Source: Porticoccaceae bacterium (GTDB lineage Bacteria; Pseudomonadota; Gammaproteobacteria; Pseudomonadales; Porticoccaceae). Taken from it: a stretch of DNA of 37,087 nt. A program made the position numbers and the translations under genes. Within the stretch, counting starts at the first letter, position 1, and each line of letters opens with the position of its first letter. The notes under the pieces are model-generated. The model searched no databases and had not been told where the DNA came from. It saw nothing but the letters and a program-made list of their open reading frames with translations. The DNA is taken from contig JABJOY010000026.1 in assembly GCA_018664075.1 (NCBI GenBank), positions 1-37,087 of the forward strand, written 5' to 3'. Of the stretch, positions 7,751-33,874 are shown in pieces.

Positions 7751-8229
7751 TGCGTATAGGCCATGGCTACGATGTGCATGCTTTTGGTGAGGGCGATGGC
7801 CTGGTGCTTGGTGGGGTAAAAATCCCTTATCAGCGCGCATTTATAGCTCATTCAGATGGTGATGTATTAATTCACGCGCTGATTGATAGTTTGCTCGGGG
7901 CTATGGCTCTGGGCGATATTGGCCAGCACTTTCCCGATACAGACCCTGCCTATGCAGGCTGTGACAGCCGGACCTTGCTGGTCGCCGTCGCAGCAATCAT
8001 GAAGGATCAGGGGTACCAGCTGGGCAATGCTGATATCAGTATTATTGCTCAGCACCCAAAGATGGCTCCGCATTTGCAGGCCATGCGCGACAATCTTGCG
8101 GCCGACCTGAGCTGTGATATCGGGCAGATTAATATCAAGGCAACCACCACCGAAAAACTCGGTTTCGCAGGCCGTGGAGAAGGTATAGCCTGCCACGCCG
8201 TGGCACTGCTGCAGTCTGCCGGAGCCTAG
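7750..8229 (+). CDS. ispF: 2-C-methyl-D-erythritol 2,4-cyclodiphosphate synthase IspF
   Basis: IspF cyclises CDP-ME-2-phosphate to MEcPP, releasing CMP, in the MEP isoprenoid pathway; it acts as a trimer. The protein has 159 residues, the standard length. Metal ligands Asp8 and His10 are in GHGYDVHAF and the third lies in [14 protein letters not shown]. The CDP-binding [14 protein letters not shown] is near the C-terminus. ATG 7750 shares its first base with the ispD stop. The downstream gene truD appears to begin only a few bases after the TAG at 8227-8229. Confidence 0.96.
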
Positions 8230-8233
8230 TCTA

Positions 8234-9199
8234 ATCAAGGGCGAGCATTTCGATTTCCATCAATTACCCCGTCTCCATGGCCAGCCATTGGGCCCGGCAT
8301 TATTTCGCAGCTGCCCGGAAGATTTCCAAGTCGATGAAATTATAGATTTTCAGCCCCGTGGCGAAGGTGAGCATCTGCTGCTGCATATCCGTAAGCGAGA
8401 CCAAAATAGCCAGTGGGTGGCAGGGTTGTTGGCCGAGTTAGCCGGGATCAAGCGCAATGATATAGGTTTTTGCGGTCTTAAAGACCGTTTTGCGGTGACC
8501 ACTCAATGGTACAGCCTGCATCTGCCAGGTCAGGATCTGGATATAGCTCAGCTTAAGCATGGAGATTTTGATATTCTTGAGGTCGCCCGCCACCACCGCA
8601 AGCTCCGTCGCGGTATGCATCAGGGCAACAGGTTTAGCATATTGCTTCGCGATGTAGGGTTTAGTCAGCAGGCGCTTGATCAGCGGCTCCATGCCATTGA
8701 CCAGCTGGGGGTGCCCAATTACTTTGCCGAGCAACGCTTTGGCCATGATGGCAATAATCTCCGTGAAGCTCAGTCATTGATTGATAGAGATCAGCTCAAA
8801 GGCAATCGCAGGGGCACAGGGCTTTATCTGTCCGCAGCCCGTTCATGGTTATTTAATCTGGTGCTGCAGCGGCGTATTGAGATTAATGGGCTTGCTGAGG
8901 GTATCGATGGAGATCAGTCTGCAGCGCTGTGGGGGCGGGGTCGATCCAATGCCAACCGGCAGGTTGCCGAGATTGAATCCGAGGTATTGGCTGAATGGCA
9001 GTCATGGTGCTATGCCCTTGAGCATGCGGGGTTAAAGCAGGAGCGTCGGGATCTGATACTGCGACCACAGAATCTTACGGCTGAATGGCCCGCAGAGCAG
9101 CAGTTGCGCCTGCAGTTTTCGCTGGATGCAGGTTGTTATGCCACTGCTGTGCTGCGTGAAATAGCGCAATTATTCCGCCCGCAACACAGACCCCTGTGA
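8234..9199 (+). CDS. truD: tRNA pseudouridine(13) synthase TruD, likely ATC start
   Basis: TruD converts U13 of tRNA-Glu to pseudouridine. The core is clear: CPEDFQVDEI, GEGEHLLLHIRKR, the catalytic-Asp segment FCGLKDRFAVTTQWYS, KLRRGMHQGNRFSILLRD, VPNYFAEQRFGHDGNNL, and AGCYATAVLREI at the C-terminus. The first standard start in frame is TTG 8288, but it cuts off the family's LHGxP segment (here LHGQPLGPALF), which is encoded upstream in the same open frame. No ATG, GTG or TTG lies between the ispF stop and that segment. ATC 8234 has GGAG (8221-8224) 9 bases upstream and would give 321 residues. The family assignment is firm; the start is inferred. The usual downstream gene surE is absent. 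Confidence 0.9.
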   Translation: MKGEHFDFHQLPRLHGQPLGPALFRSCPEDFQVDEIIDFQPRGEGEHLLLHIRKRDQNSQWVAGLLAELAGIKRNDIGFCGLKDRFAVTTQWYSLHLPGQDLDIAQLKHGDFDILEVARHHRKLRRGMHQGNRFSILLRDVGFSQQALDQRLHAIDQLGVPNYFAEQRFGHDGNNLREAQSLIDRDQLKGNRRGTGLYLSAARSWLFNLVLQRRIEINGLAEGIDGDQSAALWGRGRSNANRQVAEIESEVLAEWQSWCYALEHAGLKQERRDLILRPQNLTAEWPAEQQLRLQFSLDAGCYATAVLREIAQLFRPQHRPL

Positions 9200-24040: not shown

Positions 24041-24907
24041 CTATTGTTTGACCAGAAAACCAGAGATATTAGCGGATTGTTGCAGCATGCGTTTGATCAC
24101 CAGCAATTCCATTTTATCCGCCACCGGTCCTATCCATACTTTGAACAGATTATCCCTCTGTTGCACCAGAATAGGCTTGGAGGTATGGGTTCGAACCTGC
24201 TTTTGCAGAGCTCGAGCAGCATCTGCATTGTCAAAGGCACCGACCTGCAAATAGCGACCCTGGGTCAGGCTGGGCATAGTGTTTCCCTCAGAGCCCGGGG
24301 CCGTAGCTGGCGTAACTACAGACTTGGCCGTGCTCTTTCCCGAGGGATCTATGGCTTCTACCAACACCTCGGTAGTACCTTTGTCAGCAAAGCCCAGCTT
24401 TAGCGCAGCTACATAGGAGAGATCAATAATACGGGGCCCATGAAAGGGGCCGCGGTCATTGATGCGCACAATAATCGACCGGTTATTTTCCATGCTGGTC
24501 ACCCGGGCATAGGTGGGAATAGGCAGGGATTTATGGGCCGCCGTCATGGCGTACATATCATAGATCTCACCATTGGATGTGCGTCGGCCATGAAACTTGC
24601 GGCCATACCAGGACGCGATGCCAGTCTCTCGATAGTTTTCACTGCTGGGCAGCACAAAGTAAGTCTTGCCAAACACCTGGTAGGGGCTCTTGTTACCGAC
24701 TTTGGTAATCGGCTCTACTTTGGGAACTGGGTCGGCAATGGTTCTGGTATCGACTTTTTTACCAGCGCTATCTTTTCGCTCGACTATGGTTGGAGTATAG
24801 CCACAGCCAGCGAGCCCTAAACTACCAAGCAGGATAAGGTGCAGTGCGTATCTGGCGAATTTAGCAGTCTGATGTTGAGGCACAGCGGCGACTTCGAATG
24901 ATTTCAC
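24041..24907 (-). CDS. rlpA: RlpA-type septal lytic transglycosylase lipoprotein
   Basis: RlpA is an outer-membrane lipoprotein that cleaves glycan strands lacking stem peptides at the septum. The protein has 288 residues. A lipoprotein signal ends SLGLAGC (Cys35). The double-psi beta-barrel follows, with GIASWYGRKFHGRRTSNGE, MTAAHKSLPIPT and VRINDRGPFHGPRIIDLS; the Asp in NDRGPF and the SWYG region are the family's catalytic signature. A linker then leads to a C-terminal SPOR domain (about 218-288: GRYLQVGAFDNADAARAL) that binds denuded septal glycan. The frame starts at GTG 24907, overlapping mltB by 47 bases. GTG 24883 is an equally plausible start, giving a more usual signal length. Confidence 0.92.
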   Translation of the reverse strand: MKSFEVAAVPQHQTAKFARYALHLILLGSLGLAGCGYTPTIVERKDSAGKKVDTRTIADPVPKVEPITKVGNKSPYQVFGKTYFVLPSSENYRETGIASWYGRKFHGRRTSNGEIYDMYAMTAAHKSLPIPTYARVTSMENNRSIIVRINDRGPFHGPRIIDLSYVAALKLGFADKGTTEVLVEAIDPSGKSTAKSVVTPATAPGSEGNTMPSLTQGRYLQVGAFDNADAARALQKQVRTHTSKPILVQQRDNLFKVWIGPVADKMELLVIKRMLQQSANISGFLVKQ

Positions 24908-30425: not shown

Positions 30426-31682
30426 TTATTGACGGATCTGCCCATCGCCAAACACCACCCATTTCTGGCTGGTCAGACCTTCCAGGCCCACTGGGCCTCG
30501 AGCATGGATTTTGTCGGTGGAGATACCAATCTCGGCACCCAGACCATATTCAAAACCATCGGCAAAACGGGTTGAAGCATTAATCATTACCGAGCTGGAA
30601 TCGACCTCGGCAATAAAGCGTCGGCCGCGGTTAAAGTCTTCAGTAACAATAGACTCAGTGTGTTGGGAGCTGTGTGTGTTGATATGTTCAATGGCTTCAT
30701 CCAACCCGGAGACAATTTTGATCGACAATATAGGGGCCAGGTACTCTTCGCCCCAGTCCTCCTCAGTGGCCTCAATAATCGTCTCGAGAATAGCCCGGGA
30801 CTTGCCGCAGCCGCGCAGCTCCACATTTTTCTCAGCATAGATCTTTGCCAGCTCAGGCAAAAAATTGTTCGCCACAGGCTCGGCAATCAGCAGTGACTCC
30901 ATGGCATTGCATACGCCATAGCGATGGGTCTTGGAGTTGTCGGCAATAGCCAGCGCTTTTTTCAAGTCGGCGCGATCATCCACATACAGGTGACAGTTGC
31001 CATCAAGATGTTTAATCACGGGCACTCTGGCGTCGCTGCTGATGCGCTCAATCAAACCCTTGCCACCCCGGGGCACAATGACGTCCACATAGTCGGACAT
31101 GGTAATCAGCTCACCCACCGCAGCGCGGTCAGTGGTATTGATCACCTGAACAGCGGTTTCAGGAAGACCAGCATCCGCTAAACCATTGGCAATGCAGGCG
31201 GCAATCGCCTGGTTTGACAGAATTGCCTCGCTGCCACCGCGCAAAATAGTGGCATTGCCAGATTTAAGACACAGGCTGGCGGCGTCTATGGTCACATTGG
31301 GGCGGGACTCATAAATAATGCCAATGACACCCAGTGGAACACGCATTTTGCCCAGTTGAATGCCACTGGGACGAAAGCCCATATCGGTGATTTCACCAAT
31401 AGGATCTTGCAGGGCGGCAACCTGATTAAGGCCCTCAATCATGCCGTCAATGCGCTCATCATTGAGCTCCAGACGATCCAGTAGCGCGGCGTCCAGATTG
31501 TTGCTGCGGCCATTTTCCATATCCACAGCATTGGCGGCTAAAAGATTGTGGCGACCATCGTTCAACCTGCTGGCAATAGCCAGCAGTGCATTGTTTTTGA
31601 TTGCAGTACCGGCACGGGCAAGAACTCGAGAAGACTCTCGAGCCGCTATACCAAGGTCCTGCATATAGGCTGTAATATCCAT
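30426..31682 (-). CDS. proA: Gamma-glutamyl phosphate reductase ProA
   Basis: ProA reduces gamma-glutamyl phosphate to glutamate semialdehyde with NADPH in proline synthesis. The protein has 418 residues, normal length. [49 protein letters not shown], and catalytic Cys258 in [14 protein letters not shown] are all present, as is the late GIGTDK-like [18 protein letters not shown]. It is the first gene of the long minus-strand run proA-nadD-rsfS-rlmH-mrdA-rodA-mltB-rlpA. No proB is in the window. Confidence 0.97.
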
Positions 31683-31743
31683 AGATAAATCTTAACTGTT
31701 CACAGAGCCTGATCAACAATTATCAAGCGATTAAAAAAGCGCC

Positions 31744-31749
31744 ATTATA
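31744..31749 (-). promoter_or_regulatory. Possible -10 element for proA
   Basis: A perfect TATAAT on the minus strand (31749 to 31744), 61 bases upstream of the proA ATG. No good -35 hexamer is visible at 16-18 base spacing, so the promoter call is tentative. Confidence 0.35.
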
Positions 31750-31845
31750 CGGCCTGTGCAGGCATAATTCCCTATTTTCAGTGGTATACAGTCATTTTCC
31801 GCGACAGGTGCGTATAGAGGATTACCAATAGCGAAGGAATATCCC

Positions 31846-32658
31846 CTGAATAGCTTTATTTCACTGCTGCAAAGCTACCCAGATTGGCTGGTATTAACCG
31901 GTGCCGGAGTCAGTGCTGAATCTGGTGTGCCTACCTATCGCGATAGCGAGGGACAGTGGCAGCGCAAGCAACCAGTAACCCACCAGGAGTTTATGGCAGA
32001 CCATAGCTCAAGGCAGCGGTTTTGGTCGCGCAATATGGTGGGTTGGCGCTTTATGGTCGAGGCCCAGCCCAATGACGCCCATCAGGCACTGGTGCAACTG
32101 GAGCAGCTGGGGGTGGTTTCCTGTCTGGTCACGCAAAATGTCGATGGTCTGCACCAGCGCGCCGGCAGCCGCAATGTTATAGACCTCCATGGCCGCGTCG
32201 ATACATTGTCCTGCATGACATGTGGCATTCAGTATCCCAGGGCACCATTGCAGCTCTGGCTGGAGAATCACAACCCTGAATATGCCTTGCTGGCAGGGGG
32301 CATAGCCCCGGATGGGGATGCGGATATAGATCATCTGGACTATTCCACCATGAAGATTCCCCACTGCCAACATTGCCGCGGTATTATCAAGCCAAATGCT
32401 GTGTTTTATGGCGACTCAATCCCCAAGCAGCGGGTGATGCAGGCCGAGCAGACGATGCAGAGCGCGGCAGGATTACTGGTTGTAGGTTCTTCATTGATGA
32501 CGTATTCGGGCTACCGTTTTTGCCTCTGGGCCCAGCGCCAGGGCAAGCCGATACTGCTGTTAAATGATGGCAAAACCAGAGCAGACGAGATGGCTACCGC
32601 CAGAATGGGTGGATCCTGTTCAACTGTATTGCAAAGCTGGTTGGGTGATTTGGGGTAA
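31846..32658 (+). CDS. Sirtuin (Sir2-family NAD-dependent deacylase), likely CTG start
   Basis: A Sir2-family enzyme removing acyl groups from lysine using NAD. The NAD-binding motif LTGAGVSAESGVPTYRD (residues 17-33), TQNVDGLHQRAGS, catalytic His115 in DLHGRVD, and two zinc pairs Cys123/Cys126 and Cys174/Cys177 are all present. APDGDADI and IKPNAVFYGDSIP suggest the SIRT4-like class II. The first standard start in frame is GTG 31927, which would delete most of the NAD-binding motif. The only well-placed upstream start is CTG 31846, with AAGGA (31834-31838) 7 bases before it. The in-frame stop at 31765 bounds the search. The protein would have 270 residues. Family assignment is firm; the start is inferred. 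Confidence 0.88.
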   Translation: MNSFISLLQSYPDWLVLTGAGVSAESGVPTYRDSEGQWQRKQPVTHQEFMADHSSRQRFWSRNMVGWRFMVEAQPNDAHQALVQLEQLGVVSCLVTQNVDGLHQRAGSRNVIDLHGRVDTLSCMTCGIQYPRAPLQLWLENHNPEYALLAGGIAPDGDADIDHLDYSTMKIPHCQHCRGIIKPNAVFYGDSIPKQRVMQAEQTMQSAAGLLVVGSSLMTYSGYRFCLWAQRQGKPILLLNDGKTRADEMATARMGGSCSTVLQSWLGDLG

Positions 32659-32660
32659 AG

Positions 32661-32680
32661 CGGGGCGATTACCCGATTTT
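32661..32680. terminator. Weak hairpin between sirtuin gene and hemH
   Basis: CGGG (32661-32664) pairs with CCCG (32672-32675) around a 7-base loop, followed by ATTTT on the plus strand. The stem is only 4 bases, so any termination would be weak. Confidence 0.3.
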
Positions 32681-33692
32681 AAAGATACTTGCTCACCACA
32701 TCCGCCAGGGCCTTAAGGTGCGCCGGATCGTCATTCAAGCAGGGAATATAGTGAAAATGCTCGCCGCCATGCTCAATAAAGCTCTCCCGTGCTTCCATAT
32801 TGATCTCCTCAATGGTCTCAAGACAGTCAGAGGAGAACCCCGGGCAAATCACCGCCACATGCTTGACTCCATCAGCGGGCATGGCTTCGAGGGTTTTGTC
32901 TGTATAGGGCTGTAGCCAGGGTTCACGACCAAAGCGCGACTGGAACGTGGTAATGACTTGGTCTTCCTCCCAACCTAACCGCTCGCGCACCAACCTAGTG
33001 GTCTGGTGGCAGAAGCAATGGTATGGATCGCCTTTATTAAGGTATTTCTGCGGCGTGCCATGGTAGGAAAACATCAGCTTATCGGGCTGGCCATGCTTAG
33101 CGACATGCTTGCGAATAGTGCCACACAGGGCATCGATATAAAGTTTGGACTGCTGATAGCCACCAATAAAATGCAACTCCGGCACCCAGCGGGTTTTGGT
33201 AAATGTCTGGGCTACCGCATCAAAGGTGGAACCAGTGGTGGCACCGGAATACTGGGGGTATAGCGGCAGCACAGTAATATCACGCACATTCTGCGCAGTT
33301 AACTCAGCAATGGCTGACTCCATAGAGGGGTTGCCGTAGCGCATCCCCAGTACCACAGGCACATCGCGCTTAAACTTTTTATCGAGAATCTTCTTTACCC
33401 CGGCAACCTGATTGGTGCTGTGTACCATCAATGGCGAACCACCTTCAGACCAGACGCTGGCATACAGCTTGGCCGAGCGGCGCGGGCGAATACGCAGGAT
33501 AATCAGGTTGAGAATCATCCACCATAGCAAGCGCGGCACTTCAACAACCCTTGGGTCACTGAGAAATTCTTTCAAATAGCGACGCAGTTCAGCCGTTTTG
33601 GGAGCGTCGGGAGTGCCCAGGTTGCACAGCAGTACACCAGTTTGAGGCGAGGGGCCTTTGTGGTCGTAATCTGTCTGGCCTTGGTACTTCAT
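32679..33692 (-). CDS. hemH: Ferrochelatase HemH
   Basis: HemH inserts iron into protoporphyrin IX, the last step of protoheme synthesis. From ATG 33692 the protein has 337 residues; AGGAG lies 7 bases upstream. The frame runs on to 33761, but that extension has no family similarity. GVLLCNLGTPDAP near the N-terminus, YASVWSEGGSPLMVHS, LPLYPQYSGATTGS, the metal-binding His in LMFSYHGTPQ and the late CPGFSSDCLETIEEI (catalytic Glu region) are all conserved. CHCFCHQT-type cysteines near residue 215 resemble those of many bacterial ferrochelatases. It is convergent with the sirtuin gene and stands alone. Confidence 0.96.
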   Translation of the reverse strand: MKYQGQTDYDHKGPSPQTGVLLCNLGTPDAPKTAELRRYLKEFLSDPRVVEVPRLLWWMILNLIILRIRPRRSAKLYASVWSEGGSPLMVHSTNQVAGVKKILDKKFKRDVPVVLGMRYGNPSMESAIAELTAQNVRDITVLPLYPQYSGATTGSTFDAVAQTFTKTRWVPELHFIGGYQQSKLYIDALCGTIRKHVAKHGQPDKLMFSYHGTPQKYLNKGDPYHCFCHQTTRLVRERLGWEEDQVITTFQSRFGREPWLQPYTDKTLEAMPADGVKHVAVICPGFSSDCLETIEEINMEARESFIEHGGEHFHYIPCLNDDPAHLKALADVVSKYL

Positions 33693-33874
33693 GGAACTGC
33701 TCCTGAAAATGCGGTTGGGCGAATAGGGCCAGACAATACTGCACCGGCCCTGAATCACCAAATGTTTATTGGCTGCTATGGCAGATCTATACGCCGCAAA
33801 GAAGTGCCTAGATTGTCTTTGAGCTTCAGTTGCCGCCCGATGGACATTGACAGCACAGACGGTCTAGATAAAAG

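Follow-up and report, generated by a model that had tools for sequence, protein, structure and literature searches.

CUG has been put at 0.024% of bacterial initiation codons, with a yield of 0.86% of AUG output (both figures as quoted in PMC11497404), and in a mycobacterial selection CTG was reported as a very poor starter, at 0.03% and not enriched (PMC4633059). In the counts given for start codon evolution in prokaryotes, summed here, 4 of 68,906 ancestral starts ended as CUG, and of 320 switches away from GUG or UUG, 245, about three quarters, led to AUG (PMC5622118). A non-canonical start is reported with experimental evidence for sigR of Streptomyces, which has a GTC start codon and is repressed by IF3 (PMC5472188). 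Open-licence PMC papers were searched for sirtuins together with start codons, and none of the titles and abstracts listed was relevant.

The DNA analyzed here (the window) is a stretch of 37,087 nucleotides. It carries a gene for a SIRT4-like sirtuin, the start codon of which is very probably CTG 31846, as judged by comparison with orthologues. It adds a well supported example to a kind of start that is known but rare.

Gene identity and reading frame

Features of the locus are listed in Table 1. Translation of 31846-32655 gives 270 residues, followed by a stop codon at 32656-32658. The product scored 145.2 bits against Pfam SIR2 (cut-off 24) and 379 bits against NF003738 (PRK05333, an NAD-dependent deacetylase family), above the curated cut-off of 305. 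The best solved match was 5oj7, which we take to be Sirt4 of Xenopus, with sirtuin residues 14-263 aligned at an E value of 3.3e-60; Sirt4 crystal structures are reportedly treated in a published paper. The translation carries GAGVSAESG, TQNVDGLH, IDLHG, CMTC and CQHC, the motifs by which the family is recognized. GAG..S..SG is the NAD-binding motif, LHG contains the catalytic His and the two Cys pairs form the zinc site; QNVDGLH is a further motif of the family. By its motifs the gene encodes a sirtuin of full length, in which the sites for NAD, zinc and the catalytic His are all represented, and NAD-dependent deacylase activity is predicted.

The genes on either side, which we take from their sequences to be proA (upstream, 30426-31682) and hemH (downstream, 32679-33761), both lie on the opposite strand, so no sizeable same-strand gene lies directly 5′ of the sirtuin. 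A consensus scan of 31650 to 31900 found no sigma-70 promoter. The conserved CGTATA block was taken from an alignment of 15 of the 33 genus sequences, the nearer ones being chosen and the other 18 lying outside it. No RNA structure stood out at the start (z 0.11), 60-nt stretches of the window, L003 and L011 folding no better than shuffled sequences.

Table 1. Coordinates of the sirtuin gene and of the features around its start
Feature	Position	Strand	Evidence
CGTATA block, conserved; may belong to a -10 element	31811..31816	+	Identical in 15 aligned upstream regions
AAGGA, Shine-Dalgarno-like, 7 nt 5′ of CTG	31834..31838	+	AAGGA and 7-nt spacing also in L002-L007, L031, L032
CTG, inferred start codon	31846..31848	+	NTG aligned in 47/47 orthologues (g1, g35); CTG in nearest relative too
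Sirtuin CDS (SIR2 family, SIRT4-like), 270 codons + stop	31846..32658	+	Pfam SIR2, NF003738 and 5oj7 matches
Codons for GAGVSAESG, NAD-binding motif	31900..31926	+	Direct translation; 5′ of GTG 31927
GTG, first standard in-frame start; Val in family, not taken as start	31927..31929	+	Aligned codon also GTA, GTC or GTT in relatives

Direct reading of the window places an in-frame stop, TAA 31765, 5′ of the sirtuin reading frame. A sequence-only reading of this DNA had claimed that no in-frame ATG, GTG or TTG lies between this stop and GTG 31927, and codon reading to 31926 bore this out. Its placing of the NAD-binding GAGVSAESG 5′ of that first GTG was likewise correct, as were the AAGGA 7 nt before CTG 31846 and the 270-residue product. 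GTG 31927 was not taken as the start because a protein starting there loses the NAD-binding motif and because the aligned codon varies in its third base in relatives. The combination AAGGA-N(5-9)-CTG was counted 4 times over the two strands of the window, where shuffled sequences gave 6.88 on average. As stand-alone evidence, Shine-Dalgarno (SD) sequence plus CTG was rejected as being at chance level, and the case for a CTG start is carried by the orthologue comparison.

Start position in orthologues

Orthologues were sought across the full family (112 genomes). Of 50 genomes of the genus (g1), 33 had the sirtuin and 17, some of which are incomplete, gave no match; it was also present in the 14 genomes listed for the sister genus g35 of the same family. 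For each of the 47 orthologues, the start position was read as the codon lying 17 codons 5′ of the TGAG motif. This codon was NTG in every case (GTG 20, TTG 17, CTG 7, ATG 2, first base unread 1), and codons 22-18 and 16-11 before TGAG were variable in all three bases. Within the genus the start position read GTG in 17, TTG in 12, CTG in 2 and ATG in 2 sequences. The CTG of the window is thus located where orthologues start, and no standard in-frame start precedes the conserved coding sequence in the window. The comparison proposed in the sequence-only reading supports CTG 31846 as the start across two genera. The codons which that reading had expected in relatives, ATG or GTG, were found in part: GTG in 17 of the 33 genus sequences, but ATG in only 2.

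The two CTG sequences of the genus are the window and its nearest relative (G011, locus L002), which is 88% identical with an open frame and keeps AAGGA, the 7-nt spacing and CTG. A sequencing error, named beforehand as a way in which the CTG start could fail, is unlikely because the nearest relative also reads CTG. G011 has an in-frame ATG 42 nt upstream of CTG; this has no SD-like match and lies 5′ of the CGTATA block, and for these reasons was not taken as the start. The expectation that automated annotation would truncate the gene holds for the window with a tool limited to ATG, GTG and TTG, which would give 243 residues from GTG 31927, with the NAD-binding motif cut off and the active protein lost. 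It may not carry over to the nearest relative, where such a tool could instead choose the upstream ATG.

The start position was the 5′-most in-frame ATG, GTG or TTG in 23 of the 31 non-CTG genus sequences; another standard start lay upstream in frame in 8 of the 31 and in 6 of the 9 non-CTG sequences of g35. In-frame stops were located 0 to 10 codons upstream of the start position in many sequences. An SD-like match of at least 4 nt was present in 28 of 33 genus sequences and 7 of 14 from g35, the remaining 5 and 7 having no 4-nt match. In L003-L007, L031 and L032 the AAGGA runs into an ATG of another frame (AAGGATG), only a few bases 5′ of the GTG or TTG start; this ATG is a possible competing start.

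Initiation at the in-frame ATA 31828, a formal candidate that the sequence-only reading did not mention, would give 276 residues and use GAGGA 31817-31821 as its SD sequence. GAGGA lies 6 nt 5′ of this ATA in the window, but the nearest relative keeps the ATA and has no GAGGA, and an in-frame stop falls at or after the ATA place in L003, L005, L007, L012, L015, L016 and L021. GAGGA may also fall outside the mRNA, since it is directly 3′ of the CGTATA block. We regard initiation at ATA as very improbable.

Five sequences of g35 also read CTG at the start position (L044, L045, L058, L060 and L062), and we are unsure that these should be counted as start codons. The CTG of L058 and L060 is preceded at 6 nt by GGAG or AAGGAG. 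Both also have an in-frame ATG 11 codons upstream, with an SD-like match just 3 nt long; L057, L059 and L062 have no ATG there. L058 and L060 make a fair second case of a CTG start. L062 has an ATG four codons upstream of CTG. In L044 and L045 there is no 4-nt SD sequence; a TTG precedes the CTG by 14 codons and an ATG follows it by three. A CTG start in the genus g31 (L051, L052, L054-L056) was rejected, an ATG six codons upstream being common to the 6 g31 sequences read. In g31 (L051-L056) the sirtuin ATG lies 8 bases 3′ of a CACAAT block, with no SD sequence, and the mRNA could be leaderless.

Coding constraint around the CTG

The window was compared with G011 on both sides of the CTG. The 26 codons 5′ of it held 13 differences (3, 5 and 5 at the first, second and third codon positions), with seven codons nonsynonymous and three synonymous. 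The 27 codons from CTG to GTG 31927 held 7 differences (1, 0 and 6 by codon position), with one codon nonsynonymous and five synonymous. The numbers are small, and the switch from a non-coding to a coding pattern of differences indicates that coding constraint begins at or near CTG, well before GTG 31927.

This pattern bears on whether the sirtuin is instead a decaying or truncated copy, either starting at GTG 31927 or untranslated. CTG is a very poor initiator, and the genus genomes without a match (17 of 50, some incomplete) suggest that the gene can be lost. Against decay, the window has an unbroken frame of 270 codons and its 88% identical relative an open one, and the changes between CTG and GTG 31927 are mostly at third positions. 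The start position is non-ATG in 31 of the 33 genus sequences, so no recent loss of ATG is seen. Decay is accordingly given little credence, and a gene translated from CTG 31846 is the preferred reading.

Scarcity of ATG at the start position

Start codons of nine nearby genes (rodA, mrdA, rlmH, nadD, lipB, hemH, prfC and two acyltransferase-like genes) were tallied in the same genus, using one analyst-chosen start column per gene. The 179 aligned rows contained 159 NTG codons, the 20 non-NTG rows being left out, and ATG was found at 151 of the 159. A second possible start column of nadD read TTG in 10 and ATG in 8 of 28 rows. lipA, dacA, mltB and proA were left out for an ambiguous start column; in both candidate columns of proA, ATG was the only NTG. 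The same script gave 26 NTG in 32 rows for the sirtuin (GTG 11, TTG 12, CTG 1, ATG 2); the 6 other rows were misaligned and their codon was read by motif instead. Counted separately from the tally, rlpA (24041-24907, minus strand), ∼7 kb away, starts with a codon that is aligned as GTG in 14 of 16 genus genomes, so the sirtuin is not the only gene to keep a non-ATG start for long.

Switches at the start position were counted by parsimony on a tree of the sirtuin protein from which the start columns had been omitted. This was a quick method, and the tree has several long branches and 13 open forks. L066, L067, L069 and L070, which have no match to TGAG[VI]S, were excluded from the tree, and L061, with its unread base, from the switch counts. 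Across the two genera (46 sequences) there were at least 9 switches, one involving ATG. CTG arose at least 3 times by parsimony, or twice if L044, L045 and L062 are set aside. Compared with the published rate, one of nine switches involving ATG in both genera gives a rough P of 6.5e-5. The genus alone gives 1 of 5 switches with ATG (P 0.012), and the strictest subset 1 of 4 (P 0.042). The test uses minimum changes on a single tree and rates from other genomes; it favors, without proving, selection against AUG in this sirtuin.

The CTG may be the start and its weakness nonetheless a product of historical drift, from a non-ATG ancestor through later neutral changes; this contests the selection only. 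rlpA illustrates that a non-ATG start can persist, and the switch test has few events, reaching only P 0.042 in its strictest subset. Drift sits poorly with the 245 of 320 GUG or UUG switches that go to AUG in the published counts (PMC5622118), against one of nine involving ATG here. We give drift somewhat less than an even chance, and put selection on the weakness of the start at about even.

Census of other unusual starts

Of the 2,056,470 bases of G000, the genome of the window, 696,301 (the window among them) were compared with 990,913 bases of G011. Frames antisense to genes were retained. Of 338 frame pairs, 232 passed a codon-position filter and 49 were flagged and read. Among these 49 the sirtuin alone combined a CTG and a 5-nt SD sequence in both genomes with the lack of a standard start ahead of the conserved sequence. 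In a second scoring, 7 of 198 pairs of at least 150 residues were proposed to have CTG in both genomes; these were the sirtuin, four pairs that share a nearby ATG, and two without an SD sequence. A further five pairs had CTG in just one of the genomes, including truD and two with other starts near. In the part of G000 compared with G011, the sirtuin was the one pair found to have a conserved CTG start with good support.

Two further genes may also have no standard start. In truD (8189-9199 of the window, plus strand) no ATG, GTG or TTG precedes the conserved sequence, the first standard start being TTG 8288. The Met of the solved TruD 1si7, which we take to be that of E. coli, falls in the alignment immediately ahead of the residue whose codon is at 8249. 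A candidate start, ATC 8234, has GGAG (8221-8224) 9 nt upstream and is common to G011. In G007 and G015 the open truD frame extends at most two codons above the place of this candidate. In thiL of the window's genome (L126:6928-7944, plus strand) the candidate start CTG 6955 has GAGG 8 nt upstream; in G011 a TTG lies four codons further on, where the window's genome reads TGG.

Discussion

The mRNA most likely begins shortly 3′ of the CGTATA block. AAGGA would position the ribosome, the initiator tRNA would read CUG with a first-position mismatch, and the protein would begin Met-Asn-Ser-Phe. A search for an altered initiator tRNA in 60 pieces of G000 found two tRNA-Met genes, neither of them with the G-C run that is the hallmark of the initiator. 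The start site appears to be old and fixed in position, its first base alone varying between G, T, C and, rarely, A. Initiation of the gene appears to be kept weak, and the codon became the weakest NTG in the lineage that the window shares with its nearest relative. A low yield of the sirtuin in this lineage, suggested in the sequence-only reading, is plausible in view of the 0.86% quoted for CUG; it could, as that reading also proposed, be of consequence for an enzyme that uses up NAD, and selection for it may be at work.

A wider reading, which we offer tentatively and consider rather unlikely as a whole, is that the sirtuin of the two genera is selected to avoid AUG. Its fixed site would wander between GUG, UUG and CUG, reaching CUG up to three times, and would act as a brake, set genetically, on a deacylase that consumes NAD; this brake may be read by IF3. 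The scarcity of ATG supports such a brake only indirectly. Other odd starts may be tolerated in the same lineage (ATC in truD, CTG in thiL). That the dose of the sirtuin is set by its start codon is a testable claim. CUG is very rare as a start in bacteria, and two species with a fixed site make this locus a clean test case for it. What a specialist would not expect is how scarce AUG is in this sirtuin; across the genus this runs against the general trend described in PMC5622118.

Compared with the members of NF003738 (PRK05333) and with 5oj7, the window sirtuin has similar motifs and its sole oddity is the start codon. As in the GTG and TTG switching described for prokaryotes, the site is fixed and the first base switches; the general trend reported there is a return to AUG, whereas the sirtuin mostly stays off AUG and reaches CUG (PMC5622118). 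Like sigR of Streptomyces as described in PMC5472188, the sirtuin has a non-canonical start, conserved among species, on an otherwise normal gene. The two differ in that sigR encodes a sigma factor with a GTC start under IF3 control and the window gene a sirtuin with CTG. In sigR the weak start limits the protein (PMC5472188), and by comparison of orthologues we propose that the start of the sirtuin may do likewise.
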